Below the pieces are notes generated by a model. That model saw only the letters and a program-made list of their open reading frames with translations, made no database searches and had not been told where the DNA came from. A program made the translations under genes and the position numbers. From Hydractinia symbiolongicarpus (taxonomy: Eukaryota; Cnidaria; Hydrozoa; Anthoathecata; Hydractiniidae): DNA of 64,000 nt. Of the stretch, positions 621 to 61,640 are shown piece by piece; positions within the stretch are counted from its first letter, which is position 1; each line of letters opens with the position of its first letter. The DNA is taken from positions 21,091,001 to 21,155,000 of the forward strand of contig NC_079885.1 in NCBI RefSeq assembly GCF_029227915.1, read 5' to 3'.

Positions 621-954
621 ATGTGACGATCACAGCTACATAACCATGTGCTCCTGGTCGGCGGCTATCTTGAATTTACATTTTTGAATTGGTCCAAATT
701 TTACATGACATCAAAACAAAGACTTGACGGCAAATTTAAATGGACACAAAAATTTGCAGCTTTTTTAATACAAAAAAAGTATTAAAGGCCTTATAATGAC
801 AAATTAAAAAGAATATAGGAGTTTTAGGCCACATTAGCACGTTTGGCTAAGTAAAAAGGCTGTGTAACGTGCAAATACATATCTCACTAGCTATGTAAAC
901 ATAAAAAACAACACAGAAACGTGTCAAGAAACAAAATAAGAAAATAATTTATCA
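621..954. other. Non-coding AT-rich stretch
   Basis: No reading frame, structured RNA or repeat that I recognise. It lies between the YqaJ relic and a retrotransposon 3' module. Confidence 0.5.
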
Positions 955-1565
955 TTGAGGTGGCAAGCCACCGCAATGATGAACTGAACCTGTTAGGTCT
1001 TTGGGAATAAGCAAGAGGTTGTACTCCTAATTCTCCCTTTTTACAAGGAATTAATTAAAAATACATAAAAAAAATAAAAAGGACACAACACATTTGAAAA
1101 GATGAACAGAACTTTAACTAAGGGCAGGTAGGTTTCGACCCATATTTCTGAACCTAAGTACCCTGGATGTCTAGCTGGGTCACCTCGAAGAGGTCCGCGG
1201 ACGGTCATTAGCGGAAACTAGACATCCCTATCTTCCTAAAATAAACTTTGACCACTTTCTGTTCAAATTTGCTATTCTTTGTTTTTAACTCAGGTAATAA
1301 GTGGAGTCGTTACTCTCCAAAGACAAGATCATGTGTGATCAAACCCCCCTGCTAATATTATATATTTTTTTTTATTTATTATTTTTTTAACTGGGGTAAT
1401 AAGTGGAGTCGTCACTCTCCAAAGACAAGACCTAGTATGATCAACCCCCCTTGCTAACTCAATTTTTATTTTATTTTTTTATTTTGGACTTGGGTAATAA
1501 GCGGAGTCGTCACTCTCCAAAGACAAGACTGAGTGTAGTCAAGCCCCCTTGCTGACTCTACAGAA
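955..1565 (-). repeat. 3' module of the RLE/USP retrotransposon family, reverse orientation
   Basis: Reads almost base for base as the reverse complement of 41520-42160, with a deletion of about 24 bp near 1035. It carries three tandem units of about 100 bp (centred near 1320, 1415 and 1520), each with the conserved GTAATAAGTGGAGTCGT motif, then a unique segment with GTAGGTTTCGACCCATA, and at 959 the terminal palindrome GGTGGCAAGCCACC. No coding part of the element is attached, so this is a 3'-only insertion as expected from 5' truncation of a non-LTR retrotransposon. Confidence 0.75.
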
Positions 1566-4077: not shown

Positions 4078-4689
4078 GATGAGTAAATGAGGGGTAATTT
4101 GTGTACATACCCTGATGATTGGCAGCCATTTTGAAATTTGAAGATTTGTTCAATAAGTTTGGGATGGCTACTATGCGCAGCACTAAAGACTTAAATTTTC
4201 CTTTCCATACTAGGCATACAATGTGTTATGTACACAAATTCTCCTGGAATACCATATTCTTGATGTTTCCCAGGTGAAAAAATTAAGAATAAGAACAGTT
4301 GTTGGGGAAGTAATGGAACATGGAAATTAATTCCTATGAAGTTTTACAGAGAAAACAAGTTTCAGTTATTGATCTTTTAAAGTTTTCTTTTAAGACTATT
4401 TTTTTAGCGATCAAAGAAGAACAAAGTCGCAACCAAATTTAAGAAATCAGTTTACCATTAACGTAAGTGAAAAAATCTTACCAGGAATATACCTTAAGGC
4501 TTATAAAGCCACTATAGATTTCAGTTCCGAGTTTGGTAGAGAACTTGTTGTAGTTATCAAATTCACAAATTTGAAAAGTTTTAAAATTTATCTTTGTAAA
4601 TTTACCAATGTTAACACCAGTTCAGTTTTTTACAAAGACTTACCTAATAAAGCGGTGGGTGAAATCATTTGCAGTTACGAAAAGTCATG
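4078..4689. other. No recognised gene
   Basis: Non-coding by inspection. Short frames only. Confidence 0.4.
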
Positions 4690-9430: not shown

Positions 9431-9850
9431 TATTCGATCAAAAGTTATCGCAAATTGTTCTCCCAGTACCAAAACTTCCCCAAATCGTGACGTCATCAAA
9501 AAAATTTTCGAAATATTTTTACATCGCGTGATAGCTTTCATAACAAAGATCCTTTGTGCAAAATTTCATGCGAATCGGTTCATCCAATCAAAAGTTATCG
9601 CGAATTGTTCTCCCAGTACCAAAAATTCCCCAAATCGTGACGTCATCAAAAAAATTTCGAATTTTTTTTACATCACGTGTTACCTTTCATAACAAAGATC
9701 CTTTGTGCAAAATTTCATGCGAATTGCTTCATCCGATCAAAAGGTATCGCGAATTTTTCTCCCAGTACCAAAAATTCCCCAAATTGCGACGTCATCAAAA
9801 AAATTTCGAAATATTTTTACATCACGTGATAGCTTTCATAACAATTCATA
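9431..9850 (+). repeat. About 150-bp tandem repeat, 2.8 copies
   Basis: Units start with ATCAAAAGTTATCGC at 9437, 9587 and 9736 (spacing 150 and 149) and contain CCCAGTACCAAAA, CGTGACGTCATCAAAAAAAT and CATAACAAAGATCCTTTGTG. Units differ by scattered substitutions. A related single piece lies near 57045-57085 (ATCCTATCAAAAGTTATC), so the unit is part of a dispersed family. Confidence 0.85.
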
Positions 9851-14450: not shown

Positions 14451-14625
14451 TGAGGTGACAAAACAGCAAGCTGTAATGATAATACTTGTCTAAAGACAAG
14501 ATCATTTGTTATCCACCCCCCTTGCTAGCTAATTTTTATTTGATTTTGTTTTTATTTTGACTGGGGTAATAAGACAAGACTGAGTGCAGTCAAGCCTCCT
14601 TGCTGACTCAATCTGGTTAAAATAT
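14451..14625 (-). repeat. Short 3'-module copy of the RLE/USP retrotransposon
   Basis: Begins TGAGGTGACAAAACAGC, forming the palindrome ACAGC-AA-GCTGT, runs through AATGATAATACTTGTC and then truncated remains of two of the 100-bp repeat units (ACTGGGGTAATAAG, CAAGCCTCCTTGCTGACTC). The unique central part is missing. Orientation is opposite to the copy at 41.5-42.2 kb. Confidence 0.7.
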
Positions 14626-14843
14626 TCTTACCTCAGCTCTTGGAAAAAGAAAACATGAGTGGTGACTGCTAAGAAGGCAGTTAAGGCAGGTAAACACTGC
14701 ATTTCACCAGAAGACCCAACTTTAAAACCCTGTCAAAAACATTTAGCTATATTGGAAAATTAGTACTCTAATCGAAAGTTCATCAAATTAGCTGTAATGT
14801 CTCGACACTGTGTCGTAACAGGATCAATAATGGCGATTATTTA
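14626..14843. other. Upstream flank of the THAP segment
   Basis: No coding feature. A promoter for the THAP segment would have to lie here, but I recognise none. Confidence 0.3.
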
Positions 14844-16770: not shown

Positions 16771-16955
16771 AGCATGAGTACTGTCAACTTGGACCTATAA
16801 CTATTCACTGAGAAAATCTTAAAGAGAAAAAACAATCCTTCAATCACAAACAATACGACACAAGACAGAGCTAACAACATAAACGGACTGGTTACAGAAC
16901 AACCACAAATGGAAAAAATATATATGTCAAAAATATATAATATAAAAAAGAATTA
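16771..16955. other. No recognised gene
   Basis: Short AT-rich spacer with no coding signal beyond the SWIM gene remnant. Confidence 0.3.
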
Positions 16956-17770
16956 TATAAAACCCTCCTGTGCGCCAGAACTTGTGACTCTGGCTGTAGC
17001 TTTCCACATGTGTTACAGGGCCCCAACACTCAGCCTTACACAGGAGGTTGTCATGACAGGACCAGCCTGTACATATTTTGACTAAGGACAGCAGGGTTGT
17101 CAAGCCTGAAGACCAAGTTAGTAAACTTGGGCACCTTACTGAACTGGGGTAAAAAGTGGGGTCGTTACACCCAAAGACAAGCTGAAAGCAAACCCCCTTG
17201 CTAAGCTTCTTTTAAGTTACCAGAGAAGAGTGAGCTGAACTCTTTACCCTCTGGGTATTGACGGCAAACTGGTTCGAATGAACTAGCTGGGGTAATATAA
17301 AACCGCTCGGATTTACATTTTCCTCCCCCATGAATGTGGAAGTACAGGTTTTGTAAACGTAATGATAAATGTATAAGAAAGAAAGAAAAAGCGGATCAAC
17401 AGCGAACGTAACAAAGAATATAACATGAATTGTTGTTGAGAATAGGTGGAGAGCATTTGCAAACCGCTCTATCGTTGCAGTGGTACCAAGAATTTGTGGC
17501 AGGATCCTTAACATAAGCCCAATAATGACCTGCGCTTAACGTACCAGAGTGATTAATTGTTGCTAACAATGAGTAGTTCTGATTAAACATTGTGTCCGTA
17601 TCACTGACAAGAGGTAGTTGCAGGAGAGAGTCACGTGAAGAAACACATTCAACAACTCTGTTGTCTTTTACCAGATGTTTACCATGTTTTAAAAACCTTT
17701 TAAGATGCAGGAATAAGATTTCACTACTCCTGCTGATTTGCGTTTCTCTAGTACTCTCTCTATGTGCAAA
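16956..17770 (-). pseudogene. 3' part of an RT-USP retrotransposon (copy B): USP C-terminus plus 3' module
   Basis: On the minus strand from about 17735 one frame reads FLHLKRFLKHGKHLVKD, YSLLATINHSGT and LSAGHYWAYVKD, ending CYVRC at 17396. This is the C-terminal half of a C19 ubiquitin-specific protease with the KRF strand, the catalytic His in GHYW and the DDR-like acidic site (HCNDRAV). Downstream (17300-16956) lies a 3' module matching 60960-61340 in reverse, including GTTACAGGG, CCTTACACAGG and one 100-bp-type unit (GGGGTAAAAAGTGGGGTCGT). The Cys box and everything upstream are missing. Confidence 0.75.
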
Positions 17771-18540
17771 GCATTGCGCACAAAACTTTCAAGCCGATAT
17801 AGTTTGCGATGTCAAGATAATTTAACGAATCTAGGGACAACTAAATTTATATCATCAGTCACACGTGAAGCTTGTTTTGAAAATTTTCATTTCGTTCTTT
17901 GGCATAATTTTGGTTATGTAAAATGCGCAATCGAAATCTTATTTTGTTTTGAAGAGCGAAAGCCACAAAGGTTAAAAATCATTAATACGCCGGTGTAAAG
18001 TAAGAGAGATTTTTGATACTTGCATTGGTCTTTAACAAAAAAAATTATATGGGCTAAAGCAGCATTGATTAAGATTTATATGCTTGAGAAAATAAAAAAA
18101 TGGATAAATATCACATGTATATAAACATAATTTTTTTAGCGGTTACAATCAAGATTTTTCCTTCAAAAACGCACAAAAATAATATTTCTTAGTGTTTTTT
18201 TATTGAAATTCCAAGTTCAATCTTTCCTTTGTCGATATTTGTATAGGTTTTACATAGTTGTTGACAAGTTTACCTCTTTTTTTGAGATTTTCATAGTTAT
18301 GTAAAATTCACCGTTTTTCGTGTTTACCTTCTAAAAATCTACCATTATGATTTTTTTTTATTTTCCGAAACCGGAAAGTTGTGTATTATATTGACGGCGC
18401 GACAGGGTTTGCGGAAACCAGCGTTAATAGACATTCTCGTGTAGCAAAATAATAATTCAGGCAAAGGAGCTGTATGCAACGCATAGAGCCCTTAATTTGT
18501 CGTTTTATTTATTTTCTATCAGCCACCAGTATAGAAAGTG
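17771..18540. other. AT-rich non-coding stretch
   Basis: No domain-bearing frame. T/A-rich throughout, with a short GC patch (GACGGCGCGACAGGG near 18393). Confidence 0.4.
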
Positions 18541-28530: not shown

Positions 28531-29063
28531 CATGATTCTTGGATACAGCTTACTATAAATTGATATTAAATCGAGTGTCTGACTTCGGCTTATTACATCC
28601 AATAATTACGAATTCATGGGCAGACGGTTGTTTTGAGAAACAACTATTCTGTCTGTTGAACTAAAAACTTGTACCATGATTCTTGGATACAGCTTACTAC
28701 ACATTGATATTAGATCAAGTGTTTGACTTCGGCTTATTACATCCAATAATTACGAATTCATGGGCAGACGGTTGTTTTGAGAAACAACTATTCTGTCTGT
28801 CGAACTAAAAATGTTTACCATGATTCTTGGATACAGCTTACTACACATTGATATTAGATCAAGTGTTTGACTTCGGCTTATTACATCCAATAATTACGAA
28901 TTTATGGGCAGACGGTTGTTTTGAGAAACAACTATTCTGTCTGTTGAATTAAAAATGTTTACCATGATTCTTGGATACAGCTTACTATACATTGATATTA
29001 TAATCAAGTATTTGACTTCGGCTTATTACATCCAATAATTACGAATTCATGGGCAGACGGTTT
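28531..29063. repeat. 144-bp tandem repeat, about 3.7 copies, each with a hairpin
   Basis: CATGATTCTTGGATACAGC begins at 28531, 28675, 28819 and 28963, spaced exactly 144 bp. Each full unit contains GTTGTTTTGAGAAACAAC (7-bp stem, 4-base loop) nested in CAGAC...GTCTG. The fourth unit ends inside CAGACGG. It lies just past the C-terminus of the Helitron helicase, so it is probably in that element's 3' non-coding region. Confidence 0.9.
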
Positions 29064-29191
29064 TTATTTTGTTTATTTTCTAAATCAAAATTTTACTTCG
29101 CATATTGATTTCACAACAAATATATGAACATATACAATGTTTTTTAATGTATATTATCTCCAACATAGGTTAATTTCAGTTGTGATTATCA

Positions 29192-39483: not shown

Positions 39484-41508
39484 TTGCAATTTTTGCTATG
39501 CCTGGCGAAAATTTTGCTATATTTGGATGCCCTACTACTCAATTCTTGTTTACATCACTACTCAAAATAGCTGGCTTAGGGCTCTTAGACCACAAGAAAA
39601 TACCATCAAAAGGCACTTATGCTTACCGAAAGCTTGTTTCCAATATCATTGAAGAAAATGAAGAAGATATTTACCATGCCAGAGCTGTACAGTTGCATTT
39701 GCAAGGCAATTGGACGAAATGGTGCTCTTATGTGAAAATGATTTATCTTGGAGAACAATTCTTTCACTGCCACAATGTCTAACTTCCTTTTGTATAGGGG
39801 CAACCTACGACACCCTTCCCTCTCCAACCAAGCTTGTGAGATGGGGAATTGAGAAAGACAAAAGTTGCATTCTGTGCAGGAAACCATCCTCAAATGTCAC
39901 ATATTGGGTGGCTGTAGGACCTCCCTTACGCAGGGTAGATACACATACCGTCATGACTCGGTTTTAATAGTTTTGGTTAAGGCATTAAAAGAGTTTTTGG
40001 TATCATATGAACCTCTTAAGGTTTCCAAGTGCAACAAAATTAATTTCATTCCGGCCGGTCAATCACCATCTAAGAAGAAGCATACAAAATGTCCAGGCCT
40101 TCTTTACCTTGCTTCCGATTGGAAAATACTGTCAGATTTAGATTCCGTTTTAGTTGTTCCACCATACATTGCAATAACACAACTACGCCCAGACGTGTTA
40201 TTAATATCCAGTTCTTCCAAAACTGTAATTATGTTAGAACTGACTTGTCCATGTGAAGAGAACACGGAATATTGGCACAAACGAAAGCTTAGCAAATATT
40301 CTTCACTTTGTTATGCTATGAAAAACAATGGATGGATCGTGCATTTCTTTGTTATTGAGGATGGTGCAAGGGGTTTCTGTTCAGAATCAGTAAGGACCTG
40401 TTTTCGTCGCCTTGGTTTCCCTAACAAGCCTTTACGTTCCCTATTAAGATCCCTAACTTTCACCTCCATGAGTGCTTCTTTTTACATCTGGATGTCTCAA
40501 AATTCTACCACTTGGGTTGAGCCTGAAAAGGCCCCAATCATTCCTGAAGTTTCTTCTGTTACAAATATGGAATGTAAGAAAACCCCTGAGAAATCTTCCG
40601 CAAATCACACAACATCTTGTAAAGTCAAAAAACCCGATAAACTTGCTACAAGGTCGTCCAAAACAACAGTCGCAATGCCATCTAACCCTGATTTTAGGAA
40701 TAGTGGTCTAAAAAACTTGGGAAACACATGTTATGCAAACTCCATCTTACAATGTTTTTATAACCTTCCAAAAGTTAAAGAAGCCATTTCTGTCAGCAAA
40801 ACAACCTCAAAGTTAGGCGAAGCATTTGTAGGTGTTCTTCAATGTTTGGCTGTTTCTAGAAGTCCAGTTGATCCCTCCCATTTTTTGCGTGCTATGAAAC
40901 ATCATATCTCAGCTGCGAAGGGAAGTGCATTTAATATCTTTGCTCAGCACGACGTCCCCGAGGTTCTTGAATATCTCCTACCTGGTCTGTCATTAGACTT
41001 GCCATTTCTTGGAAGTCTTTTTAGTATTGGCATCAAGACATCAACCACTTGCAATTCATGTCATATTACCAGCTCCTCAGAAGTTATAGCACCATGCATC
41101 CAACTTTCTCTGCACCCTACGTTACAATCTTCCTTAGATAATTTCTTCGAAAGTGAGGAGTTGTCAGACAGCAATGCCTACTTCTGCCATGTTTGCAACG
41201 CTCATCAAACTGCTCTAGTTGAAAAAGGGGTAGTGTCGTGCGGTTCCCATCTCATTTTACAGCTAAAACGTTTTGCCAGTGCCAACGGCCTTGTGTCAAA
41301 AATTGCCTCTTGTATTACTGCTTACCCTGGTACCCTTTCCATAACTTTAACCGTAGATGGAGAAGTAAAATTTCGTAAAAATTTTCAATTAATGGCTATT
41401 ATCAACCATTGCGGCAACCTAAATAATGGTCACTACACAACCATAGCCTTCGACCGCCTTATTAACAGTCACGAGTCATATGTTTTCTTTTTAGAAGAGC
41501 TGAAATAA
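39484..41508 (+). pseudogene. RLE retrotransposon C-terminal region fused to a USP deubiquitinase (copy A)
   Basis: From about 39560 (LGLLDHKKIPSKGTYAYRKL) the sequence matches the region downstream of the RT in copies C and D. It contains a CCHC motif (CILCRKPSS...HILGGC, 39860-39930, one frameshift inside) and a restriction-like endonuclease core (TQLRPDVLLIS, MLELTCPCEEN near 40200-40260), as in NeSL/R2-type retrotransposons. The last open frame (39865-41508, 547 codons) continues into a C19 ubiquitin-specific protease: Cys box LKNLGNTCYANSILQCF with C289, AQHDVPEVLEYLL, zinc ribbon CNSC...CHVC, HLILQLKRF, and His box INHCGNLNNGHYT with H523. The final acidic-residue segment is shortened. 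Endonuclease and protease are in one frame, so the fusion is real. The RT is missing upstream (5' truncation). Confidence 0.85.
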
Positions 41509-42160
41509 GAATATTTTAACCGGAATGAGTCAGCAAGGGGGCTTGACTACACTCAGTCTTGTCTTTGGAGAGTGACGACTCCACTTATTACCCCAGTCAA
41601 AAATAAAACAAAATCAAATAAAAATTAAGTTAGCAAGGGGGTTTGATCATACTAGGTCTTGTCTTTGGAGAGTGACGACTCCACTTATTACCCCAGTTAA
41701 AAAAAAAAAAATAAATAAAAAAAAAAATATTAGCAGGGGGGTTTGATCACACATGATCTTGTCTTTGGAGAGTAACGACTCCACTTATTACCTGAGTTAA
41801 AAACAAAGAATAGCACAGTTGAACAGAAAGTGGTCAAAGTTAATTTTAGGAAGATAGGGATGTCTAGTTTCTGCTGATGACCGTCCGCGGACCTCTTCGT
41901 GGTGACCCAGCTAGACATCCAGGGTACTTAGGTTCAGAAATATGGGTCGAAACCTACCTGCCCTTGGTTAAAGTTCTGTTCATCTTTTCAAATGTGTTGT
42001 GTCCTTTTTATTTTTTTTTTATATATTTTTTTTAATTCCTTGTAAAAAGGGAGAATTGTGCTTTTAGAGTCATATTCTCTAGAGGAGTACAACCTCTAGC
42101 TTGTTTCCAAAGACGTAACAGGTTGAGTTCATCATTGCGGTGGCTTGCCACCTCTTTGTA
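41509..42160 (+). repeat. 3' module of RT-USP element copy A, with three 100-bp units
   Basis: Starts 10-20 bases after the USP stop codon. Units begin GTCAGCAAGGGGGCTTGA (41527), TTAGCAAGGGGGTTTGATC (41630) and TTAGCAGGGGGGTTTGATC (41729); each contains TCTTGTCTTTGGAGAGTRAC and GACTCCACTTATTACC. A unique segment follows (GGGATGTCTAGTTTCTGC, GGGTCGAAACCTACCTGCCC) and then the palindrome GGTGGCTTGCCACC ending at 42154 before TTTGTAAATTATTTTC. TGGAG...CTCCA and CAAG-GGGG-CTTG can pair. This is the non-coding 3' end that the element's RT would be expected to recognise. Confidence 0.8.
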
Positions 42161-42249
42161 AATTATTTTCCTATGTTATTCCCAGAAAGTTTAATTTTTA
42201 GACATTTCAACAAAAATCATCAAGTTAATTCTTCACCCAGATCAATATT

Positions 42250-43818
42250 ATCGCTCAAATGTTTGCATTATTTTAACTTTGCCTGTGAAACCTAATCCTT
42301 GTGCTAATTGTACAGCACATAACGTTAAATTTAAATCATCTACAGCCCAGAAAGATACCAAAATGCTTGAACCACCAAAGTTAAAAGCACCTATCAAATT
42401 CACCTCTCCTGAATGCATAAAATTAAGCATTCAAAATCATTGGTTAGAGTGCAAACAACTAACAGCTCAATTAGTGGAAATGAAAACTGCGATTCAAGTT
42501 AATGGTGGCAATGTAAGTCGTGAAATAGGCTCTGATTTAGTAACCTTGTTCAGTGCTTGCGACAAAAAAAAATATACCACCGTTTATGAAATTATTTTTG
42601 GAAGAGCAATAAAGGTATATTCAATCTTCTTTACCAACTATTGTCAGGTACCATCCAATGGTTATTAAATTTTGTCTAAACCTGACAGCAAAATCTTCTT
42701 CTGCTTATTCGGATTTGAGATATGATCCTAAGACTGGTAGTGATATGATGGTTCTTCCAAGCCTGCGAACACTTCGTATTTACAGAAATTACACACGACC
42801 AACTAGGGGATTTAATCCTAAAGTTATAAATGATCTTGCCAAAAAAACTGCCACAATTTTAGATATTAAAAGATACACAATAATATTGTTTGATGAGATG
42901 AAAGATCAGGAAGATTTAGTATGGCACAAATATTATGGCGCACTTATTGGTTTTGTTGATTTAGGTGACATTCCTACAAACTTTGCCACTTTAAAAACCG
43001 TTAAAGAACTTGCCGCACATGTACTGGTGTTTCTTGCTAAAAGTGTTGACAATCCTCTTTTGTATAGTACCGCAACATTTGCTACAACTGGGATTACATC
43101 ATATCAAATCATGCCTATATTCTGGAAAACTGTTCTTTATCTAGAGAGAATAAATTTGAAAGTTATAGTGGCTACAGCTGATGACCAAACAGACCCTTTT
43201 CAGAATGCATAGATTTTTAGATGGTGACTCTGGCAAGGATATAGTTTATCGTGCTAATAATATCCATACAAATGACAACCGTTACATCTTTTTTTTTTTT
43301 TGCTGATGCTCCGCACACATCACGAAATTGTCTCTCAAATTCTGGTTGTGGTCGAGCTACACGTTATATGTGGAATAGTGGTTTGTATATTCTTTGGAGT
43401 CATGTTACACAAGTCTATCATTAAGACCTAGAAAGTGGCTTAAAGTTAGTTCACAAGTTGACAAATGATCATGTCCAACTGACACCTTTCTCTGCAATGA
43501 AAGTTCGTCTTTCCTTAGTGAAACTGTTGGTAGTGTTTTAAATCAATTCGGTCCACCTGAAGCAGCTGGTACAGCACAATTTTGTCTCATGATGGATAAA
43601 TTTTTTGATTGTTTGAACGTAAAGAACACTGTTGAACATGAGTTGAACAGAAAGTCATTTTTAAAGCCTTATGAGTCTGTTAATGATGTACGTTTTGCAT
43701 GGTTGGATGATTTCCTTTCCTATTTTACATTATGGAAAGAATCTATTGAAGAACGTGATAGAACTTAAAAAAATGCAAAATCAAATATGTTATTTCTTGG
43801 CAGACACACAAAGGACTA
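42250..43818 (+). pseudogene. P-element (THAP9-like) transposase, broken
   Basis: Segments in two or three frames follow the order of THAP9/P transposases: a coiled-coil-like region (LECKQLTAQLVEMKTAIQ), HPMVIKFCLNLTAKSSSAY near 42653, MVLPSLRTLRIYRNYTRP near 42750, TIILFDEMKDQEDLVWHKYY with the first catalytic Asp near 42890, GALIGFVDLGD, FATTGITSYQIMPIFWK, RATRYMWNSGLYILW near 43353, and GPPEAAGTAQFCLMMDKFFD near 43550. The N-terminal THAP finger is missing, stops break the middle, and the 3' end stops at SWQTHKGL (about 43815), where it passes straight into the next retrotransposon copy. Confidence 0.85.
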
Positions 43819-45726
43819 AAAAAGCGTTGGAAGATCCACAATGCAAACCGTGCATTTAGTAAGAATCCTTATCAGGATGATAAAGATCTGCTGGATCCCA
43901 AATGCTCTATTAGGCTTAATGTTCCTAAAGAATCCCTAGATGCCCACAAAGCTTCAGTGTTAACTGATCCCTTATATGAGATACCACTTTCGACTCTTCC
44001 TGGTGTGCCCAATGCTCCCAACGTCACGTCTGCATTTGATTCCTCAAAGTTTAATTTCAAGGGCTTTCAAGCCATCCTTCATACTCGTGAAGTGCATCAT
44101 CACCCGGATTGAACAAAATACGTTAAACTGTTTGCAAGAATTGTCCTCAAATAGCGTCTTTCTTTTCAACCTTTTCCAATCTTGTTTAAAGAATTCCTAT
44201 ATTCCTGTTCAGTGAATGGTCGCTTCAGAAGTTTATATCCCTAAGAACAAGCCTCCATCTTCATCATCCATTAAGGACTTTCGGCCAATCGCTCTCCTCA
44301 ATGTGGAAGGAAAACCTTTTGTTCAGTCTTGTGTCAAAGCGCCTAGAAAACCACATTCAGAAAAACCATTATATTAACAAATCCATTTAAAAAGGATGTA
44401 TGGAAAATGTCCCTGGTTGCTGGGAGCAAATGTCTCTTGTCTGGGAAGCTCTGAGAAACGCCAAGTCTAGAAGAAATACACTATCTGCAATATGGCTTGA
44501 TGTGGCGAATGCGTATCTCACTCTACCGCATAAACTCATTTTCATGACCCTTCGTCGCTATGGTGTTTCAGAGTCTTGGCTAAGGCTTATTAACGCCTAC
44601 TATGGCAGCCTCTGGAGCAAGTCATTCTCTTTTACAGCCTCATCCAGCTGGCACCAACACTTTAGAGGAATTTTTATTGGATATACATTATCAATCATAC
44701 TATTAATGGCAGCTATAAATGTAATCATTGAATTTGTGTGCGCCGAAAAAGAGTTGAAAAGTTGTGTTCCGCCTGGCGATTCAGACCATCCTAGGTTAAG
44801 GCCTTTATGGATGACATATTTTTATTGTCTTCAAGTGTCCCTTAAACTCAGAACTTGTTGGATCGTTGTGTAACAGCCCTTAATTCGGCTGGAATGGCCT
44901 TTAGACCTTCAAAATCACGAACCATTGTTATAGGTAATGGAAAATTTTAGATCAATCTCTTTTTTGTGTCCTGCAAGAACCAATCCCATCTATTCATGCA
45001 AACCCAGTTAAGTTTCTTGGCTAAACCATAAATTCAGCATTGTCAGATTCAGCTCTTGTCCAACAGGTTATTGTTAACGCTGTAGAGCAAGTCAAACTCA
45101 TAGATAATTCTTCCCATAGAGGCAATCACAAAGTGTGGTTTTTGCATCATCTTCTAATGCCCCGAATACGATGGCCTTTTTTAATTTACGAAGCTCCGAA
45201 TCTCGTATTGTTTCACTAGAACAAAAGTTTTCTTACGTCATAAGAACGTGGCTGAAACTCCATCACTCTATTTCTAACAAAAGTTTCTATTCCGCTTTAT
45301 CGCCATGCCCGTTACCTTTAAAAAGTCTATCCTCTGTACTAAAATATGCTAAGATCAGCGGTCATCTTCTCCTGCGAGATTCGGCTGATCCTCTAGTCTC
45401 GGACTCTCCTCCAGACTTAAAGGCTGGACACTGGAAGGTAGATCAGAGAGTAAAATCAGCAGAAAGTCAACTCGAGTTCAAGAAAATACTTGGTTTCCAC
45501 CAGTTTGGTAGAGCAGGTTTGGTACTGGTAAGCCATAAGGGTGTCCCACCAATTGGTACCCATTCTTACCGCAAACTTGTATCAGATTTTGTGCAGGACA
45601 ATGAGGAAGACATCTATTAACCTCGAGCCGTTCAGCTTCATGTCCAAGGTAACTGGACTAAGTGGTGCGCGTTTATTAAATACGATCTTGTTTGGAAGAA
45701 CCTACTGTCGCTGCCTCAAAGTTTAT
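43800..45726 (+). pseudogene. RLE retrotransposon reverse transcriptase (copy C)
   Basis: Begins KKRWKIHNANRAFSKNPYQD, then LSTLPGVPNAP, DFRPIALLNVEGKPF near 44278-44325, GCMENVPGCWEQMSLVWEAL (44395), IWLDVANAYLTLPHKLIF (first catalytic Asp, 44490), RGIFIGYTLSIILL, and FMDDIFLLSSS near 44808, the FxDD active site, after a shift. The post-RT region continues to GTHSYRKLVSD and QGNWTKWCAFIKYD. The element is cut at 45726 by the inverted-repeat transposon, and neither endonuclease nor USP is found beyond it. Sequence and order match copy D and the zebrafish-type NeSL clade as I remember it. Several frameshifts and stops are present. Confidence 0.8.
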
Positions 45727-45890
45727 TATGAGGGGGGATCCGGGTCAAAATTCCGTGCATTCGGTCGTCCGTTTTAGGCGTTCGTTTTAGGCATTCGTGT
45801 GAACTGTCGTCCGTTTAAGGCATTCGTTTTAGTCGTTCGTTTTAGGCGTCCGTTTTAGCGGTTGGTTTTAGGCGTTGGTTTTAGGCGTTC
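45727..45890 (+). repeat. Left terminal inverted repeat, array of TTTTAGGCGTTCG units
   Basis: Starts TATGAGGGGGGATCCGGGTC, then CGTCCGTTTTAGGCGTTCG and about ten degenerate 12-14 bp repeats to TTTTAGGCGTTCGCGG. Pairs with 50158-50352. Confidence 0.9.
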
Positions 45891-51510: not shown

Positions 51511-52945
51511 ATCTTAATGTCTCCACATTCATAGATGTTTGTTTCCGCAAAGCCGAAATCCATTAGCTTTTCGATTAACCCGAGCGAATCCTTCTTTTTT
51601 ATTACACTTTCCGTCTTAAGGACTAGTTCTATCTGCATTGCCATGGTCTTCAACATTCAAAAGATATCGTCTGTGTGAAGACAATTTGTTTATGCTGGAA
51701 ATTGGAAATCCTCGTAATTTAGCTTGGAAGAATCAAAAGTTTGAATTGGAGTTGGTGCAGAAGGTAATCCAGTGTGATCTAAAGTAGGTATATGGAGTAA
51801 AGGATCCTTCAAAGTAAAATATTGTTAGGAATCCAGGTTAAGATATGGTAAAATATTATCAATGAGTATTTTTGAATGTGTTCATAGTCTAGTTGCTCTT
51901 AAAATTGTTGGAATCTTTTCTCACCAGGTTCCTCACAAATATAGCCTTGCTGGATTAGTTACATACATTTGCCACTCCATATGTTCCTTTATTACTTCTT
52001 TTCTTTGCTGCAAGCATCTGTTTGTATTATGTGTTCTTTTGTTTGTAACTGGTCAACATATATTTTTGTGGGTACAACCTTGTGACAAACTTTTTTCAGA
52101 ACTGGTAAATCTAGCAAAAAATCCCTCTTCAAATTTGCGTATTGTTACTTACATTACTTCGTCTCTGCATTCCGTGATTAATTAGGTTGTTAATAATTAC
52201 CATTGGTTACTATTAACACCGTAATTATTTATATTATTATATAATGATAGATTATGCGGGTAACAGTAGATTCAAATATATGTTTATATATATATTTGAA
52301 TCTACTGGTATATTTATTCAGTGCGTACAGCTTCGGCACACGCGTCTGCACTATTCAGCTGCAAACTTTTCTTGTTTTGACAGCCGAGTTAGTTCTCTAG
52401 TTACTTCTCTAAGCTTATTGCCATATGATGCTGCTGATCACCTTACTATAAAGTAAGCTGTCATACACTGATGAAACTATGCGATTTAACACATATATAG
52501 ATATAAATTTCATTAAATTTGATTTTGTACAATATCTAACTAAAGTGTCTGCTAAAGCAATGATATCACTATACAATAACATGCTGGCTGATGACTGCAC
52601 TTGACGCCCAACAATGTCACTTCCTGGTTTCTCTGGACACCTTTTAACGTTAAACCTTAATCCTAACTTGTAATAAAAGGAATTGAATACGTGAATATGT
52701 GACTGGGAGCTCTAAGTCATTTTTTAACAACGTATTCCCTTTTTCGCTATCATGTCAGGTTATGTATATGCATAAAATTGCTTTGTTTTCGAAGACGTCT
52801 TGAAAATTCCGTTCTTTCTTTAATTTTGTCCTTCCGCTTTACTTCTATGTCCTTTTTAGTTAACTGTATATTTGTAGCTAGTACCACTTCTATCTTATTT
52901 TCGAGAACATTTAGTTAGCATTCTCTGTACAGTCTCTTGTGAACC
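51511..52945. other. No recognised gene; one long hairpin
   Basis: Short frames only, including a Leu/Val/Cys-rich one at 51862-52185 that I take as chance. A hairpin lies at 52264-52307. Confidence 0.4.
52264..52307. repeat. 44-bp near-perfect palindrome
   Basis: CAGTAGATTCAAATATAT pairs with ATATATTTGAATCTACTG around a short AT spacer, giving a stem of at least 18 bp. Possibly a tiny MITE remnant or a folded AT-rich site. Confidence 0.85.
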
Positions 52946-53290: not shown

Positions 53291-53734
53291 ATGAACGAGC
53301 AGTCACCTGATGTAGACACTTTTCATCGTATTGTTGTCACGAAAATATTTACTTATGTAAAAGAGGAAAACGGTGACTGCCTCCAACAACGTAAAGCACA
53401 TCGCGCTTTGTGTTTTGTTTAAAAAAAAGTAACGCATTCACTGAGATGATGCAATAATATAAATACAGTAATTTACAGAACAGAATTGCACGATAGAAAA
53501 CTGCAGCACAAACTGTCATGTGTCTTCAATCTTGGACTTCCTTTGGCCACAGTAAAGAGAATTACAAAGTGCAAGCACAATGATAAACTTGACCAGTTAA
53601 GTTTTTCCTCCTCTAAGGAACATGTTCAAATAATAAAACACATTCCCTCCTTTTTTTAAGGATTGTACATATACGTAAGAATATTGCGCAAATGAAGGGA
53701 GAGTAGGATATGACTTGTGTACAGGATACAAGAG
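53291..53734. other. No recognised gene
   Basis: No domain or repeat recognised. Confidence 0.35.
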
Positions 53735-53965
53735 TTTCGACCATATTGCTGAACCAGGGTACCCAAAATTTCTAGCTAAGTCACCAGTAATGAGTTCTGC
53801 GAACAGTCTTTAGCAGGAAGTAGATATTTCTTTCCACGAAATTAGGCATTTCATCAGCTACCCTACTGGACAATATGCTGTGACTAGGGTAATAAGTGGA
53901 GTCGTCACTCTTGCAAGACTAGGAAAAAGAACATAATTGAACCAACTTGCTGACAAAGAACGTGA
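53735..53965 (-). repeat. Old, diverged 3'-module copy of the RLE/USP family
   Basis: GTTTCGACCATATTGCTGAA, CCAGGGTACCC, TTTCTAGCTAAGTCACC and GGGTAATAAGTGGAGTCGTC follow the same order as 1130-1460 but with many substitutions and only one 100-bp-type unit. It is the most diverged copy in the window and so likely the oldest. Confidence 0.6.
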
Positions 53966-54900
53966 TTTGTGCTGTTGTGATCTCTTATCTCAGCTCTTCC
54001 ACCTTCCTCTGTCATTGCGATGAAACCATTTACTATTCACTTTGTCATAAGCAACAGTAGTGTAATGTTCATTGTCTAAATTTCTAGTATGGTTGATTAC
54101 AAGGCAAAGCGCTTTAATTGTAGAATAAAATTGAAATGCTCTCTGCTACATCTTTTATGTTATAATCACACTGAAAAGCATAAATATCGAACAAATTAAA
54201 TAAAATTGATGAGACGAACAAAAAAATTAAACAAATGTTGAATGTGATACTCATTTTTTGGCAAGTACGATAACAATTCTCTAGCAAAGATACCTTTAGC
54301 TCTTTTATAAAATAATCATTACAATAATTTTTGGTCATTCAAGTACTCAATAAAAACAAAAACAAAGAACATAACAAATAACACAACCCAAGTACTGTGA
54401 TGCTTGATTTTAGGGGTCCCCCCATACAATTAAGCACAGAAGAGTAGCCAATGAAATAGTGAACTATTGCATCAGAGCATTGTAGTGTATCCATAGCTTA
54501 AACTTTGTTCAGAACTTGCTCTTGGAGGTTAACTTAGAGGACCTTTTAGTTCATAGAGATAAATCAGCTTACAGATTAATCACATATCTTCGAAATAATT
54601 ATTTGAAATAAAAGTACTATAACCATCAATTTGATCTTCTTTATAATCAAACTTCAAAATGATCACTTCGTATTTAGCTAACCTAAACATTTTTTTCATG
54701 TTGGTTTTTCGAGTTAACAGTTGCTAAAATTCTTTTAACAGCATGTAACTTGTCAACTAAGCTTCGAAGTATGATAGCACATTCTTCAGGCTTTTTAACA
54801 ATGCTACCGGAGCTAAATATGATGCATTTCAGACAATACTATATTTTAAAGGATACTTTTCTTCAAACTTTAAGAGAATTTCTGACACCAACTGTTTATG
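53966..54900. other. No recognised gene
   Basis: AT-rich, no supported feature. It may hold downstream parts of the gene whose exon relic lies at 54905-55065 on the minus strand, but I see no clear second exon. Confidence 0.35.
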
Positions 54901-55289: not shown

Positions 55290-55495
55290 TATGTACGGGA
55301 GGTTTGATCACACATGATCTTGTCTTTGGAGAGTGACCTAACTAGACATATAGGGTATTTAGGTTCAGAAATATGGGTCGAAACCTACCTGCCCTTGGTT
55401 GAATGCTTTTGGAAGCATTTTCTCTAGCTTGTTTTTTAAAGACCTAACAGGTTGAGTTCATCATTGCTGTGGCTAGCCACCTCTTTGTAAATTAA
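55290..55495 (+). repeat. Internally deleted 3' module of the RLE/USP family
   Basis: GGTTTGATCACACATGATC, GGAGAGTGACC, then a jump to CTAACTAGACATATAGGG, GGGTCGAAACCTACCTGCCC and the terminal palindrome GTGGC-TA-GCCAC ending 55493 before TTTGTAAATTAATTTC. The middle and the other repeat units are missing. Confidence 0.7.
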
Positions 55496-57439
55496 TTTCT
55501 TATTTAGGGTCCTACCTACTACATTTTCAACAAACCAGTAGAGCGCTACCTACTGCTTCTTACTATTCTATTAATAGAAAGGGAATGTTGACTTTCTTCA
55601 AGTAACTAACTTTTTTTCTGATCGGTCTTTCACACCTTTAAGTTGAATAAGAGTTCGAGTGAATATTTTAACACTTATCATCCTCTTGAGTATAATTTTT
55701 CAAGATACTCTGTCACGTTTTTATAAACAATAAAATTTAAAAGGAAGATAGGTTTCCATACGACTGCATTTTCCGCTCAAGCGGAAAAAGCTCGCGAGTT
55801 TTTTTCTCTCGAGTTCGACGTGAATGGAAATTAATTTACAGCTCATTTAGATTAAAATGGCTGCCGTAAACAGAAGATATGCTTTATTTTATTTCAACTT
55901 CGTTTATATGGCACCGTGTTAAAAGAAGAAGAACTCGAAAACATCAACAGAAAAGATTGTTTAGGGGCAAGAGACGGCAAACATGTAGTAATGCAAGCGC
56001 CATCCCGAAGTGGCTCAGACTACTTTAATTACAAAAAAGCACATAGCATAGTGTTGCTTGCTGCGTGTAACGTATGTTAGGAATATACCTTGATCAACAT
56101 TGGTGATGTGGAGGGTCAAAGCGACAAACTCAATCAGTAGGCCACACCCAACTACAATAAAAGATGCATTAAGTAAGATATATACAGATGTTTTTGTGGC
56201 TGACGATACCTTTCAATTAAAAACACATATGAGAAAAGGGTTTTAGCACATATGCTAAAACCGTTTGCTCCTCTTGGTTCTTGCATTAAAAAAAATATTC
56301 AACTACCGTCTATCAAGGGCCAGCAGAATAGTTGAAAATTGTTTGGTATATCAGCGCTAAAGTTTCGAATTTTTAGACGTGCCATTATTGCACAGGTGAG
56401 AACTTTAAATTTAATAACAAAAGCAGCAGTTGCTCTACACAATATGTAAGTAAAGTTTTTTTTGAAATATGCAACTAGATACACACTTTTTTTTATAAAG
56501 ATTATGCTTTTTAGTTTAAGTGATTCTTAAAAAATCGACATATTCAATCTTAAATAATCCTTAAAGTGATTCTTAAACACGGTTGCAGTAATAAGAGAAA
56601 GCCAATCAAAGAACGTATAAGGTTCAGTCCAGGTAATGGACAATTTTTTTCAAAAAATTGAAATTTTCCAAAAATGCTTTGGTATAAAGTTACAGGAAAA
56701 AATTGGAAGGAAAAATTTTTTTTAAAAAATAAAGTTGATGACGTCACTAATTATGTGCATAATTAAGAAAAGAAAGGCATAAAAACAGGTAACCTCTTAG
56801 TATAGATATGTCCTTGTAGGATTATTCTTGTAGGTATGTTCTATGGTTCTAGGAGCATGTATTGAACGAAGCACTTTTTCTATTTTTGCCTTGATTCAAA
56901 CCAGGCTGGCCTTCAAACTCAAAAAACTTTCCTTTTTTTTGAAATATTGGTGTGGCAAAATCCTTTTTTAAAATTCTTTTAGGCAATTAGGCAAAAAAAA
57001 TACTTTGTTCAATACATGCTATGCATATCAACGAATATATGTTAAAAATTTCAGGCCAAAAGCTTTATCCTATCAAAAGTTATCCTTGTTGAAAGATTGA
57101 AAAAGCGTGAAAAAGTGAGTTTTGAGAAAAATACTTTCATAAAACATTTAATAACAAGTCAAAAAGCACCATAACGATATGTCACACCTTCTTGAGCATT
57201 TTTGTAATCAAAGCCTTTGAAGTTTATGCAAATTGATCATACGTTGGAAGAACCGCGACATTCATGTAACTTCCATCCTGCCTGGACTCCCTTTAAGATT
57301 GTCATTGCTGGTAAGCAACTGGGTTAGTGTCTTTATTCCTTCCCCACATATCACATTCTCCGGTCTTCTTGGTCATAACTTTAACATCAACACATTTTAC
57401 ATGCAAAATGAACGTGACAATCCTGTTCAATGATGAGTA
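55496..57439. other. Non-coding; dispersed repeat pieces
   Basis: Contains a repeat end at 55744-55800 that is inverted at 63545-63595, and at 57045-57085 a piece related to the 150-bp repeat of 9431-9850. No recognised frame until the retrotransposon begins at about 57.45 kb. Confidence 0.4.
55744..55800 (+). repeat. Dispersed repeat end with palindrome TTTTCCGCTCAAGCGGAAAA
   Basis: ATAGGTTTCCATACGACTGC then the palindrome. The same block lies inverted at 63545-63595 (CTCGAGCGGAAATTATAGTT, GTATGGAAACCTACC). Probably MITE ends; whether the two bound a single 7.8-kb unit cannot be told from sequence alone. Confidence 0.5.
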
Positions 57440-60400
57440 CCCCCGTTTTTGCCAAGCGCCATCACCACTGACTGTAGCCTTGCCCTGTGCGCCAGGCAAC
57501 GCAGGGTGGTCCCTTGTCCTGTGCATATTCTTTCACTGTAGTTCTGAATTTAAACAGCCCAAAACCTCAAAGCTGCTACAGCGATAAGGATATTGATTTT
57601 GAGGTAAATAGATCAGCTAATTCTTGCCAGTCGGACCAAATTCCTCCCTTGAAAAGGTGCAGCGTCGTCCTTCAGGATATTTTCTCAAAACGTGGTGCTG
57701 AAAAGTTTCAGACAGCGAATGCGTTTCCGGATAAAAGCCACACGAACCATCCCTGTCACATTGATGAGAAATATCTTGAAGATTTGCGAATCAAAACACC
57801 AATAAAATGGGGTAAAATGATCGATCCTCTTTGGTCTACCTTGGACATAGCTGTTTCTAACAGACTAAGTAGACACTATATATGAGAAAGGTGCAAAAAC
57901 ATTTGGCCATTCAGAAGCTAAAAAGTTTAAACATCTTTCTGGGAAAAATAGGAGGACTTTGCGGTCCATTAAACTAATACAGTCTTGTGGCGCAGGTAAT
58001 GACTGTGTCCGACCCTGTCCAGAAGTCGGATCTACAGGGGCTGCTAGCAGGAACGCAAGAGAAAATTAAGGTGAAACGTCGTGCAGAGAGAAGGTTAAGG
58101 AAAAAGATTAGGTTCAGAAAGGCGCAGTTTGCGTTCAGGGCAAACCCGTTTGCAGCTGGTAAGGCTTTGCTCGATCTAAAATGCAAGTCAAACTGCGTGT
58201 TAACCAACAGACCCTAGACCAACATAAATCTTTGGCTGTTCAGGATAAGTTCTATGACGTTCCCTTGACGAATCTAGACGGTTTTCCTGCTGCCCCATCA
58301 ATTCTGAAAGCTTTAACTCGTCTTCTCTTAAACACAAACATTTTTTAACTCTTCTAGCAATCTCCTGGTGTTAATGCAATTCCTTACAAAGCTTATAAAA
58401 CGTTTTTAAATGTTGTGTCAAAAATTGTGTCGTACCTGTTCATTGGCGTATTGCTCGTGAAATTTATATACCTAAATCGAAAACCTATGGAGTCAAACAT
58501 AAAAGACTTTCGACTTATAGCAATTTCAAATGTCGAAGGTAAGCTTTTCTTCAGCCTTGTATCAAGGCGGTTGGAAGCTCATATCATAACAAACAACAAT
58601 TTTATAAATACATCTGTCCAAAAAGGTTGTATGGAAAAGGTTCCGGGCTGCTGGATACATATGTCAATGGTTTGGTCAGCACTCAAAGATGCCTGTTCAT
58701 CAAAGTCAGATCTAGCAACTATTTGGCTAGATATCGCAAATGCATATCCTTCAATTCCTCACCGTCTTATCTCCTTTGCTCTTCAGCGGTACGGTGTTCC
58801 ACCACCTTGGATTGCTTTTATTAGAAACTACTACATTGGTATTTACAGTAAATCATTTTCTGAATATGCACCAAGTTCTTGGCATAAACACATGCGAGGC
58901 ATATTTGTTGGTTGTACGCTATCCATTGTCCTCTTTTTAGCTGGCATCAATATTATTCTTGAATATACCTTATTGGCTTCCGTTCCAGGATTTATCACAT
59001 CAAGCAAGGTGGCACTTCCCTTAATGAGAGCTTTCATGGACGACATTAACCTTATGTCTTCATCTGTTTCGGGTACTCAAAAGCTATTATACGGATGTGC
59101 TACCGCACTTAAATGAGCTGGTATGGACTTCCGAACTCAGAAGTCGCGAAGTATTGTTATTATAAAAGGCAAGTCTCTGAATTCTGCACCTTTCACCGTC
59201 CAAAAGCCTGAAAACCCTACAGACTTCTCTTCCTATATACCATCTATCCACTCCATGCCAGTACGCTTTTTAGGTTGCGTCATAGATGGTTCTATTTCTG
59301 ATAGGAAAGCTATTGACGAGCTTCAGGAGAAATTATCTATAGGCCTTTCAACTATAGATAAGTCAGTTTACAAAGGTCCCCAAAAGTTGTGGATTTTACA
59401 ACACCTTCTAATCCCGTCTAAGCCCATAGGTCTCTTACATCTTACCTCCGATTGGTTGCTTCTTTCTGACTTAAAGGTGGATTCGTTTTCCCTGGTCATA
59501 TCGCAATAACATCGCTTAGACCAGATCTTGTCATGTACTCTAACAACAGTAAACGTGTAATTTTGATAGAGCCTACCTGTCCATGTGAGGAAAATATGGA
59601 AATCTGGCATTCAAAGAAGCTTTTGAAGTATTCACCCTTAGTTGAAATTATTAAACAGAACGGATGGAATGTAGATATTTTCGCAATTGAAGTAGGTGCT
59701 CGAGGCTATTGCTCCCGATCAGTGTGACTGTGTTTAAAAAGATTAGGGTGGAACAACAACAAAACTTTCCGAGCTGCGCGTAACCTTGCTGATGTATGTA
59801 TGAAATCCTCTTTTTGTATTTGAATTGCAAGAAATTCAAGTGAATGGAATCAAGATGGACTTATCTCCATATCCTCCACACCAACGGGGCCTGATTCTCA
59901 AAAGCCAAAAACAAAAACCTTGCCACAGAAACAAAACCAAACTTGCTGTAAGAGCAACCCGTCTGAAAGGCCTTTCCCTGATTTGCCTAACCACAAGACT
60001 GCTTCAATAACTTTACATGCAGGGCTTACAAATAAAGGTAATACGTGCTACGCCAATTCTATTTTGCAAGCTTAACTGTAACTCCTACACTTTGGTCACA
60101 ATGTGCATCTGAGTCCTCTTATGTTTCTCCTCTCTCCAAGTCAGTTTCACTGAACTTATCTCTGCTGTATAAATCACGCTTTGCTATAGACCCGTCCAAC
60201 TTTCTTAGAGCTTTGCAGTGTAAGATGTCAAGCATTAGGGGCACTCCATTTAATATTAACACTCAACAGGACGTTCCAGAGATACTTTTACACATCTTGG
60301 ATGAATTAACAGGACCGTCGGTTATTGCAAACAATGGCATTACTAATATTTTAACGACGACCATGTCATGCAATTCGTGTCTCTTTTCATCTAGTAGCGA

Positions 60401-60882
60401 GGAGAGGATGACTGTTGTGCCACTTGCTACCTTAAGTAGCGTTGCAAACTCCTTTCACTTGTTTTTCCAACCCGAAGAGCTGACTGGCAATGACATGTCC
60501 ACAGTGTTCTTCTCTCCAGGATAGTACAAGAGAGACAGCTTTTAGTCAGTGTGGGGATTTGTTGATTCTCCAACTAAAAAGATTTACCTGTGTCGAGGGA
60601 AGATCAGTAAAAAACAACCAATTTGTTAATTGTATCTCTCACTCTGGCAACATATTGGAGGTACCTTCACATCCTGCAGATGATGTATCTTTTACCAACA
60701 AATACAAACTAGTGGCAACTATAAATCATTAAGGCACACTAACAGCAGGTCATTATTGGGCATTTATTAAAGATCGGAATGTAGACCAGTGGTTGAAATG
60801 CGATGACAGGGCAGTAGTTAAGGTTAAGCCGTCTGATATAAATAACTCAACAGTGTATGTGTTGTTCTTTCTTAAGCTGTGA
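57440..60882 (+). pseudogene. RLE (NeSL-like) retrotransposon with C-terminal USP deubiquitinase (copy D)
   Basis: The fullest copy, in at least eight frame segments. N-terminal part: KTPIKWGKMIDPLWSTLD (57795), a basic region (RRAERRLRKKIRFRKAQ, 58075) and RANPFAAGKALLDLK. Reverse transcriptase (58415-59116): IKDFRLIAISNVEGKLFFS, GCMEKVPGCW, IWLDIANAYPSIPHRL with the first Asp, RGIFVGCTLSIVLFLAG, AFMDDINLMSSS with the DD pair (59029). Thumb: FLGCVIDGSISDRKAIDEL. A deletion removes the CCHC part, then DLVMYSN and EPTCPCEENMEIWHSKKL keep most of the endonuclease. USP: NKGNTCYANSILQ Cys box (60040), INTQQDVPEILLHIL, CNSC and CPQC zinc ribbon, LLILQLKRF, INH(stop)GTLTAGHYWAFIKD His box and KCDDRAV. 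RT copies the element, RLE nicks the target, and the USP could remove ubiquitin. Stops and shifts make this copy dead. Confidence 0.85.
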
Positions 60883-61640
60883 AAACGCGAATTTTGCTTT
60901 GCAAAAGGGGGAGGATTTCTTTTCCTAGCGGTTTTATTACCCCGGCTGTTATTTTCACCGGCAGCCTACCGTAATTCAGGAGTTTGCTCACTCCCACTTT
61001 CTTACAGAGTAATTAAAAGAAGCTAAGCAAGGGGGTTTGACAATCTGTCTTGTCTTTGGGTGTGACAGCCCCACTTTTAACCCCAGTCCATTGGGGAGGC
61101 CAAGTTTGCTCACTTTGTCTACAGGGTTAACGATCCTGATGTACCCACAGTTATTGTTATAAGAAGCTTTGCAAGGGGGTTTGAAATTTCTTTTTCGGGT
61201 CTTCGTGGATTTACGCCCACGCATTTTACCCCAGTAACTTCAGGCTGGTCCTGACATAGGGCTGGTCCCAAGCGTCAATCACCTGTGTAAGGCTGAGTGT
61301 TGGGATCCCGTAACACATGTGGAAAGCTACGGCCAGGTTCAAAAGTCCTGGCGCATGGGTGGTTGTCTGCTCTTTATTATAGTTTTGTATTTTTAGTTTT
61401 ATATTTATTTATTTCTTTCTATGTCGTATAGTAATTTGTAACTGTCAGTAGGTGTTTGTGATGTAAGGTTTATAGAGGGTCTTTAGTTCAATTACCTTGA
61501 TTCTGCAGACTATCCTTGTAAAAAGGGAGATCTTGCACTGAGTATAGATCTCTAGAGGGTGTAACCTCTACAATTCAAAAACAAAAGAGTAAGTAGACTG
61601 GTTCCATCATTACAGCTTGCTGTTTTGTTATCTCACAATC
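60883..61640 (+). repeat. 3' module of RT-USP copy D
   Basis: Two repeat units: CAAGGGGGTTTGACAATC...TTTGGGTGTGACAGCCCCAC...TTAACCCCAGT (61028-61088) and CAAGGGGGTTTGAAATTTC...CGTGGATTTACGCCCACG...TTTTACCCCAGT (61170-61233). Then a unique part shared in reverse with 16956-17100 (CTGTGTAAGGCTGAGTGTTGGGATCC), GTAGAGGTT-like blocks, and the terminal palindrome ACAGC-TT-GCTGT before TTTTGTTATCTCA ending at 61635. Confidence 0.8.

Follow-up and report, generated by a model that had tools for sequence, protein, structure and literature searches.

Non-long terminal repeat (non-LTR) retrotransposons with a restriction-like endonuclease (RLE) comprise the clades CRE, R2, R4, NeSL and HERO, as listed in the sections of PMC4640811 available to us, and descriptions of the R2-group architecture are found in the corresponding parts of PMC3636483 and PMC7650587. 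According to the same sections of PMC4640811, nematode NeSL elements and Utopia-1_TSP possess an N-terminal Ulp1-like protease. Furthermore, the accessible part of PMC2836005 reports Ginger1 transposases with a C-terminal OTU or Ulp1 domain and cites a Trichomonas protein composed of transposase_11 and Peptidase C19. Here we report on a stretch of 64,000 nucleotides of the hydrozoan Hydractinia symbiolongicarpus (contig NC_079885.1, positions 21,091,001 to 21,155,000 of the forward strand; referred to at its full length as the window) that contains copies and relics of an RLE element. In copy D, a decayed non-LTR element at 57.57-61.57 kb, an N-terminal domain (N-domain), the reverse transcriptase (RT) and the RLE are followed by a ubiquitin-specific protease (USP) and then by the element's own 3' untranslated region (3'UTR). 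From sequence and predicted structures, it is very probable that these copies represent an RLE non-LTR lineage with a single open reading frame (ORF) that encodes the N-domain, RT, thumb, CCHC knuckle, PD-(D/E)XK-like RLE, a linker and a C-terminal C19 USP; in the window copies, the element 3'UTR follows. In our judgement, these RLE non-LTR retrotransposons form a new lineage, whose C-terminal deubiquitinase is old.

The window was scanned in six frames with the nt, rtrle and usp profiles, all built from alignment A1 (48 sequences; the usp profile has a length of 289). On the forward strand, copy D begins with the N-terminal domain of the element ORF (57568..58321; nt profile, E 3e-18 to 2e-7, four pieces in shifting frames), followed by the RT and the start of the thumb (58361..59416, in the pieces 58361-59113 and 59117-59416; rtrle profile, E 8e-111 and 2e-34). 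The RT piece is also matched by Pfam RVT_1 (4.4e-11) and is 79% identical over 219 columns to the Hydractinia protein P0138 (P numbers are labels of proteins from the searches described below). The C-terminal part of the RLE (59479..59820, forward strand) corresponds to rtrle profile positions 687-768 (E 1e-38) and 771-800 (E 2e-4), and the C19/USP domain (60013..60876, forward strand) to positions 3-288 of 289 of the usp profile, in four pieces with accompanying Pfam UCH pieces; in three tblastn pieces, its identity to P0054 of H. symbiolongicarpus amounts to 51-72%. The 3'UTR occupies approximately 60880..61570 on the same strand, with GCAAGGGGGTTTGA units at 61027 and 61171 and the motif CCTTGTAAAAAGGGAGA at 61514. 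Copy D is broken by frameshifts and by an internal deletion, seen as a jump from profile position 375 to 687 at 59416/59479, and its linker and zinc knuckle are gone.

Copy A, also on the forward strand, retains the linker/zinc-knuckle region 5' of the RLE (39567..39901, in two frames; rtrle profile 492-603), the RLE in an open frame (39886..40521; rtrle profile 600-811, E 9e-87; included in an AlphaFold2 model), the USP in frame with it (40696..41505; usp profile 3-256 at 40696-41454, E 1e-82) and the 3'UTR (41506..42180), with three tandem units of about 100 bases and CCTTGTAAAAAGGGAGA at 42038. Between 39570 and 41019 it matches P0001 piecewise with 89-95% identity, and its protein is about 41% identical to that of copy D over 211 positions of the RLE, linker and USP start. 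The Cys and His boxes of its USP are present, and a gap of 20 residues in the alignment covers the W..CND segment, so that the third triad residue is missing. The first-pass annotation, made from the letters of the window alone, had placed a C19 USP directly after the RLE in copies A and D and both enzymes of copy A in one open frame; the profile order runs from RLE to USP in both copies, and in copy A the two domains do share one frame of 551 codons (39853-41505; Pfam UCH 5.2e-26). No intact element was found within the 64-kb window.

Homologues were collected in three protein searches that yielded 340 different proteins (120 matches, the best 120 of 162 and the best 120 of 540). In the second and third searches scoring was restricted to the 7994 candidates with most words in common, and the third, seeded with a USP-less protein, covered proteins of up to 810 residues; the resulting counts are over public proteins. 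Among the 340 proteins listed, 134 matched both the RT/RLE and the USP profiles, 149 the RT/RLE profile only and 57 the USP profile only, and the USP was located C-terminal to the RT/RLE in all 134 proteins that matched both. Forty-three proteins correspond to one complete ORF from the RT start to the USP end; their RLE-USP linker has 31-143 residues (median 51) and is rich in S, P and K, and the ORF ends 0-6 residues past the USP. Pfam RVT_1 was detected in P0121, P0127 and P0135 (4e-17 to 1e-19) and Pfam UCH in these three and in P0191 (1.7e-21 to 5e-35). A Pfam scan of 6 long members revealed no Ulp1 domain, and an NCBIfam search gave nothing useful. The RLE-type family with a C-terminal USP that had been proposed from the window copies therefore holds and is far broader than the window, and the joining of RT and USP is not confined to a few loci. 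Likewise, the constant order and the homologous 3'UTR that follows the USP remains show that the fusion is neither due to chance nor an accident of neighbouring relics.

Several clusters stand for many sequences (593 for P0181, 364 for P0163 and 142 for P0158), possibly owing to a high copy number or to multiple sampling of one source. Fusions carry no other organism names than H. symbiolongicarpus (P0001, P0025, P0026 and P0054) and the label of a Pseudomonadales metagenome-assembled genome (MAG; P0137 and P0167); the latter two are probably misbinned eukaryotic contigs in bacterial genomes. Three of the Hydractinia proteins that match the RT/RLE and USP profiles carry the names USP51-like (P0025), USP17-like 6 (P0026) and putative USP50 (P0054), and in all likelihood these are ORFs of the element that have been mistaken for deubiquitinases of the host. 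Element ORFs named in this way would inflate USP gene counts. A pattern for N-terminal C2H2 fingers, which usually serve in target binding, was found in 9 of the 43 complete proteins and in 0 of the 34 others. Four of the bearers (P0185, P0194, P0201 and P0214) belong to the deep subclade, and the other five (P0190, P0191, P0192, P0196 and P0198) are closely related to them. Since the fingers occur only in deep members, crown elements may have lost them.

The catalytic residues of all three enzymatic parts are conserved. Among proteins with both profiles, the catalytic Cys of the USP is kept in 134/134 and the His in 94/95 aligned proteins, the remaining one having Tyr, while 39 proteins do not reach this position. 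The third triad position is N in 77, D in 12 and S in 4 proteins (N/D in 89/93), the Asp that follows it is present in 93/93 and the Asp of QQD in 121/122, and the four zinc cysteines are kept in 114/117, 117/117, 112/112 and 111/112 of the aligned rows. In the aligned USP-bearing rows, both Asp residues of the RT motif FMDD are conserved (70/70 and 70/70), as are the CCHC knuckle residues (112/113, 112/113, 114/114 and 114/114) and, in the RLE, the PD Asp (127/128), the Glu (128/130) and the Lys (131/131). Over the 903 pairs formed by the 43 complete proteins, median pairwise identity is 0.50 for the RT, 0.43 for the RLE and 0.29 for the USP.

A crude estimate of selection was obtained from the window copies, where the proportions of differing silent (pS) and replacement (pN) sites were counted over short relic stretches; some of the constraint may go back to ancestors that the copies share. 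For the USP, the comparison of copy D with copy C, a reverse-strand copy described below, gave pS values of 0.80 and 0.84 and pN values of 0.39 and 0.36 over 78 and 48 codons, and that of copies A and C gave 0.92 and 0.49 over 96 codons. The RLE of copies A and D differs with a pS of 0.85 and a pN of 0.28 over 80 codons. Replacement sites are far from saturated and hence as expected of past purifying selection. Neutral evolution of the USP, raised in the first-pass annotation as a point that would speak against its reading, is thus not what is seen, as far as these data allow a test: pN remains at 0.36-0.49 against a pS of 0.80-0.92, and the active-site Cys, His and Asp are almost invariant.

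The history of the fusion was assessed with an RT-RLE tree of 104 rows, made up of 101 proteins (of 161 candidates, at a 72% similarity cut), the RT of copy D and two R2 sequences as outgroup, which form a long separate branch. In the rooted tree, all 44 USP-bearing rows are inside one 58-row branch with a length of 0.74, and the 44 rows from the third search are all outside it. Of the 118 new proteins from the third search (among the matches listed, 120 of 540), none had a USP match; 102 reach the end of the RLE profile, and 98 of these stop at most 26 residues past it. The trees of RT-RLE and USP agree over 37 shared rows, with a Mantel r of 0.867 as compared to 0.386 for the largest of 2000 permutations, and 15218 of 20000 quartets were concordant. 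In the USP trees, the element USPs group with no particular cellular USP, given the small cellular set used (24 rows in the 103-row tree and 16 in the 40-row tree). Most likely, an RLE element whose protein originally stopped behind the RLE acquired the USP as a C-terminal addition, and USP and RT have been inherited together ever since.

Several observations weigh against this picture. The 58-row branch has a Shimodaira-Hasegawa-like approximate likelihood ratio test (SH-aLRT) value of 83, which is under the starred level, and it contains 13 rows without a USP match. Nine of them are crown rows (P0133, P0138, P0140, P0160, P0174, P0176, P0178, P0206 and P0213) that end 1-83 residues past their last RT/RLE match and are either truncated or truly USP-less. 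The other four are deep rows. P0212 extends only to profile position 725 and so falls short of the RLE end, and its relatives P0191, P0192 and P0196 (72-76%) have the USP. In P0195, P0202 and P0220 the RLE is complete to its end and the protein terminates 0-22 residues past it, for which USP loss, truncation or a split ORF are possible reasons. A single branch separates the element USPs from the rest in the 40-row tree (SH-aLRT 87), and 3 changes are needed in the 103-row tree, and because the two trees differ, the data are at most consistent with a single USP capture. In addition, the divergence of the USP is about 1.6 times that of the RT-RLE, as would be expected of an arms race or, equally, of a weaker constraint, and no dN/dS ratio is given because silent sites are saturated, dS being infinite under the Jukes-Cantor correction.

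Predicted structures are in agreement with the domain assignments. The AlphaFold2 model of the RT to RLE part of P0166 (mean predicted local distance difference test score, pLDDT, 89.2) has R2 as its first seven structure matches, with template modelling (TM) scores of 0.55-0.70, followed by ORF2p of the long interspersed nuclear element LINE-1; the best match is R2 9dou (E 4.2e-31, TM 0.70). A comparison with the R2 profile aligned RT, thumb, CCHC and RLE at an E of 1e-50. R2 (R2Tg and R2Bm; PDB 9dou, 9nl3, 9nl2 and 8gh6) has the same collinear order of these parts, but the matched R2 chains stop after the RLE, with no USP in the alignments, whereas the ORF of the present elements continues into the USP. 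The model of the copy A ORF has a mean pLDDT of 83.8, with low values at 228-260 and 262-279. Its Foldseek matches are USP2, USP46, USP21 and USP8, the best being USP2 2hd5 (E 4e-22), and the 50 matches listed, at 19-24% identity, also include USP1 and USP36. The cellular USP2, USP21, USP8 and USP46 have the same fold and catalytic motifs at this level of identity, and the element USP differs from them in being fused to RT-RLE.

Among the matches listed, the nearest RT-RLE relatives are the USP-less RLE elements P0065 and P0223-P0340, which possess the same knuckle and RLE motifs and for which molluscs, fish and amphioxus are the named hosts; unlike the present lineage, they have no USP match. 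We take these relatives to belong perhaps to the HERO or NeSL clade. Like the present lineage, NeSL and Utopia belong to the RLE non-LTR elements and have captured a cysteine protease from the ubiquitin/SUMO systems, but as described in the available text of PMC4640811 their protease is Ulp1-like, N-terminal and found in nematodes, whereas here it is a C19/USP at the C-terminus with Hydractinia as the named host. The present element is not a NeSL-type Ulp1 element, and the contrast that had been drawn between the two agrees with that paper. Ginger1 is comparable in being a mobile element with a deubiquitinase-type domain at the C-terminus, but from what the accessible part of PMC2836005 states, Ginger1 and the other cases are cut-and-paste DNA transposons, and the C19 case is a single protist protein. 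No RT-USP fusion was found among the titles and opening abstract lines listed in searches of the open-licence literature, nor in the sections of PMC4640811 and PMC2836005 cited above, Repbase entries and subscription papers being outside this coverage.

Further remains of the family occur in the window. Copy B is a related copy with N-domain, RT and thumb (43807..45728, forward strand; nt and rtrle profile pieces) that is 60-89% identical, depending on the segment, to H. symbiolongicarpus P0055 and P0176; the six-frame profile search detected no RLE or USP following in place. Copy C, on the reverse strand, consists of the C-terminal half of the USP (17402..17785; usp profile 166-288, E 7e-41), with the zinc CxxC, GHY and CND motifs, and a 3'UTR (16913..17220) that is 78-81% identical to blocks within 61009-61409 of copy D. 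Also on the reverse strand are a relic with a USP fragment (54008-54109; usp profile E 1.4e-5) followed by 3'UTR blocks identified by their UTR matches (53734..54109 in total), another with the last bases of the USP frame and the 3'UTR (14489..14681; 77% identity to 41453-41669), a further relic with an N-domain fragment (51702..51815; nt profile E 1e-4) and a 3'UTR-only copy of the copy A subfamily (930..1558), which is 90.6% identical to the copy A UTR at 41527-42180 and has an exact CCTTGTAAAAAGGGAGA at 1032. A deleted 3'UTR copy of the same subfamily is on the forward strand (55297..55505; UTR matches).

Copies A and D have 3'UTR blocks in common, and a homologous 3'UTR directly 3' of the USP remains in five cases, namely, copies A, D and C and the relics at 54 kb and 14.6 kb. 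The 17-base motif CCTTGTAAAAAGGGAGA is exact in copy A, copy D and the reverse-strand copy at 1.0 kb; against these 3 exact window matches, none of 100 shuffles gave more than 2, with up to 3 mismatches tolerated. Because the element 3'UTR is found just 3' of the USP across copies and relics, the USP lies inside the transposed unit. The three tandem units that open the copy A 3'UTR span 41526-41810, and diverged units are present in copies C and D. The window also contains local direct duplications of 92-100% identity at 28523-29065, 9432-9844 and 20451-20797, where none of the element profiles matched. In viral contigs the CCTTGTAAAAAGGGAGA motif was found at 6 loci, and tblastn with P0121 and P0191 gave no match in any of them. 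In viral contigs (4 loci) and genome contigs (9 loci) the USP part alone was matched, except for a weak 21% match in L011. This match reached before the USP, but it proved to come from an isolated USP-like protein that is surrounded by ordinary genes of bacterial type. The frame in question (2443-4080 of a Holosporaceae MAG contig) encodes 545 residues of USP-like sequence with Cys and His boxes. The IMG/VR contigs L001-L003, of 56-132 kb, encode USP-like proteins that are 25-27% identical to the element USP.

The explanation that we favour overall, with a probability of about 0.6, is that of a USP-bearing retrotransposon lineage whose deubiquitinase would most likely guard its own ribonucleoprotein (RNP) against ubiquitin-dependent breakdown. 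An accidental association, be it through chimeras among the gene models, through relics that happen to be neighbours or through a retrotransposon next to a USP gene of the host, could be suspected from the broken state of the window copies and from the Hydractinia models that split the element (P0055, P0138, P0160, P0176 and P0200, without USP match). It is effectively ruled out by the 134/134 order, the 43 complete ORFs that end just past the USP and the agreement of the trees, to which the 3'UTR in five copies and relics adds. That the fusion recurs in many elements with the active site kept suggests a use for survival or action in the cell. By analogy with R2, the RLE would nick DNA and the element RNA would be copied by target-primed reverse transcription. 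The tethered USP would strip ubiquitin in cis from its own RT/RNP or from neighbouring molecules, and host E3 ligases would then be unable to commit the RT/RNP to proteasomal degradation, whether ahead of insertion or in its course. The proposed ubiquitin threat has a counterpart in LINE-1, whose ORF2p is reported, in the available text of PMC10716122, to be ubiquitinated by TRIM41, which promotes its degradation. The combination of target-primed copying with a cis deubiquitination that protects the RT/RNP is a tentative proposal, which we place slightly below even odds. We see an even chance that this is an old, diverse lineage, as the sequences indicate, with a catalytically kept deubiquitinase serving as counter-defence for its own RT or for nick factors, in which the fast USP would be the partner in an arms race. 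If so, it would to our knowledge be the first element of the LINE type to bring along an anti-restriction enzyme of the deubiquitinase kind.

The USP of the same element might instead act in trans on ubiquitin marks at the insertion site, such as monoubiquitin on histone H2A/H2B, PCNA or FANCD2, and either open chromatin or blunt those repair factors by which the insertion intermediate is destroyed. Stabilisation of the RNP and editing of target chromatin had both been suggested as possible functions in the first-pass annotation. The linker, with its median of 51 residues and low pLDDT in copy A, would tether it to the nuclease at the nick, the Foldseek matches include USP1, USP21, USP36 and USP46, and loss of Fanconi anemia factors, FANCD2 included, raises LINE-1 retrotransposition in mouse, as stated in the accessible part of PMC10584689. 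However, no substrate can be read from the sequence, the fold matches span the USP family generally, and the trees, with their small cellular set, tie the element USPs to no particular cellular USP. We consider a trans-acting role less likely than protection in cis. Less probable still, though not negligible, is a mainly structural or binding module that anchors the element to ubiquitinated chromatin or a host complex, with catalysis being secondary. The sequence of the USP does diverge faster than that of the RT-RLE, but Cys (134/134), His (94/95) and Asp (93/93) are kept at a median identity of 29%, and this retention of the active site is more than binding alone would require.

Ubiquitin-pathway domains on transposons have already been noticed, namely, Ulp1 on NeSL and OTU or Ulp1 on Ginger1, for which the parts of the cited papers available to us only suggest roles. 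The lineage reported here has maintained the fusion of RT and RLE with a true USP, and the active site of the latter, while its members diverged deeply. This makes it testable whether retrotransposons manipulate host ubiquitin signalling for their survival or insertion.

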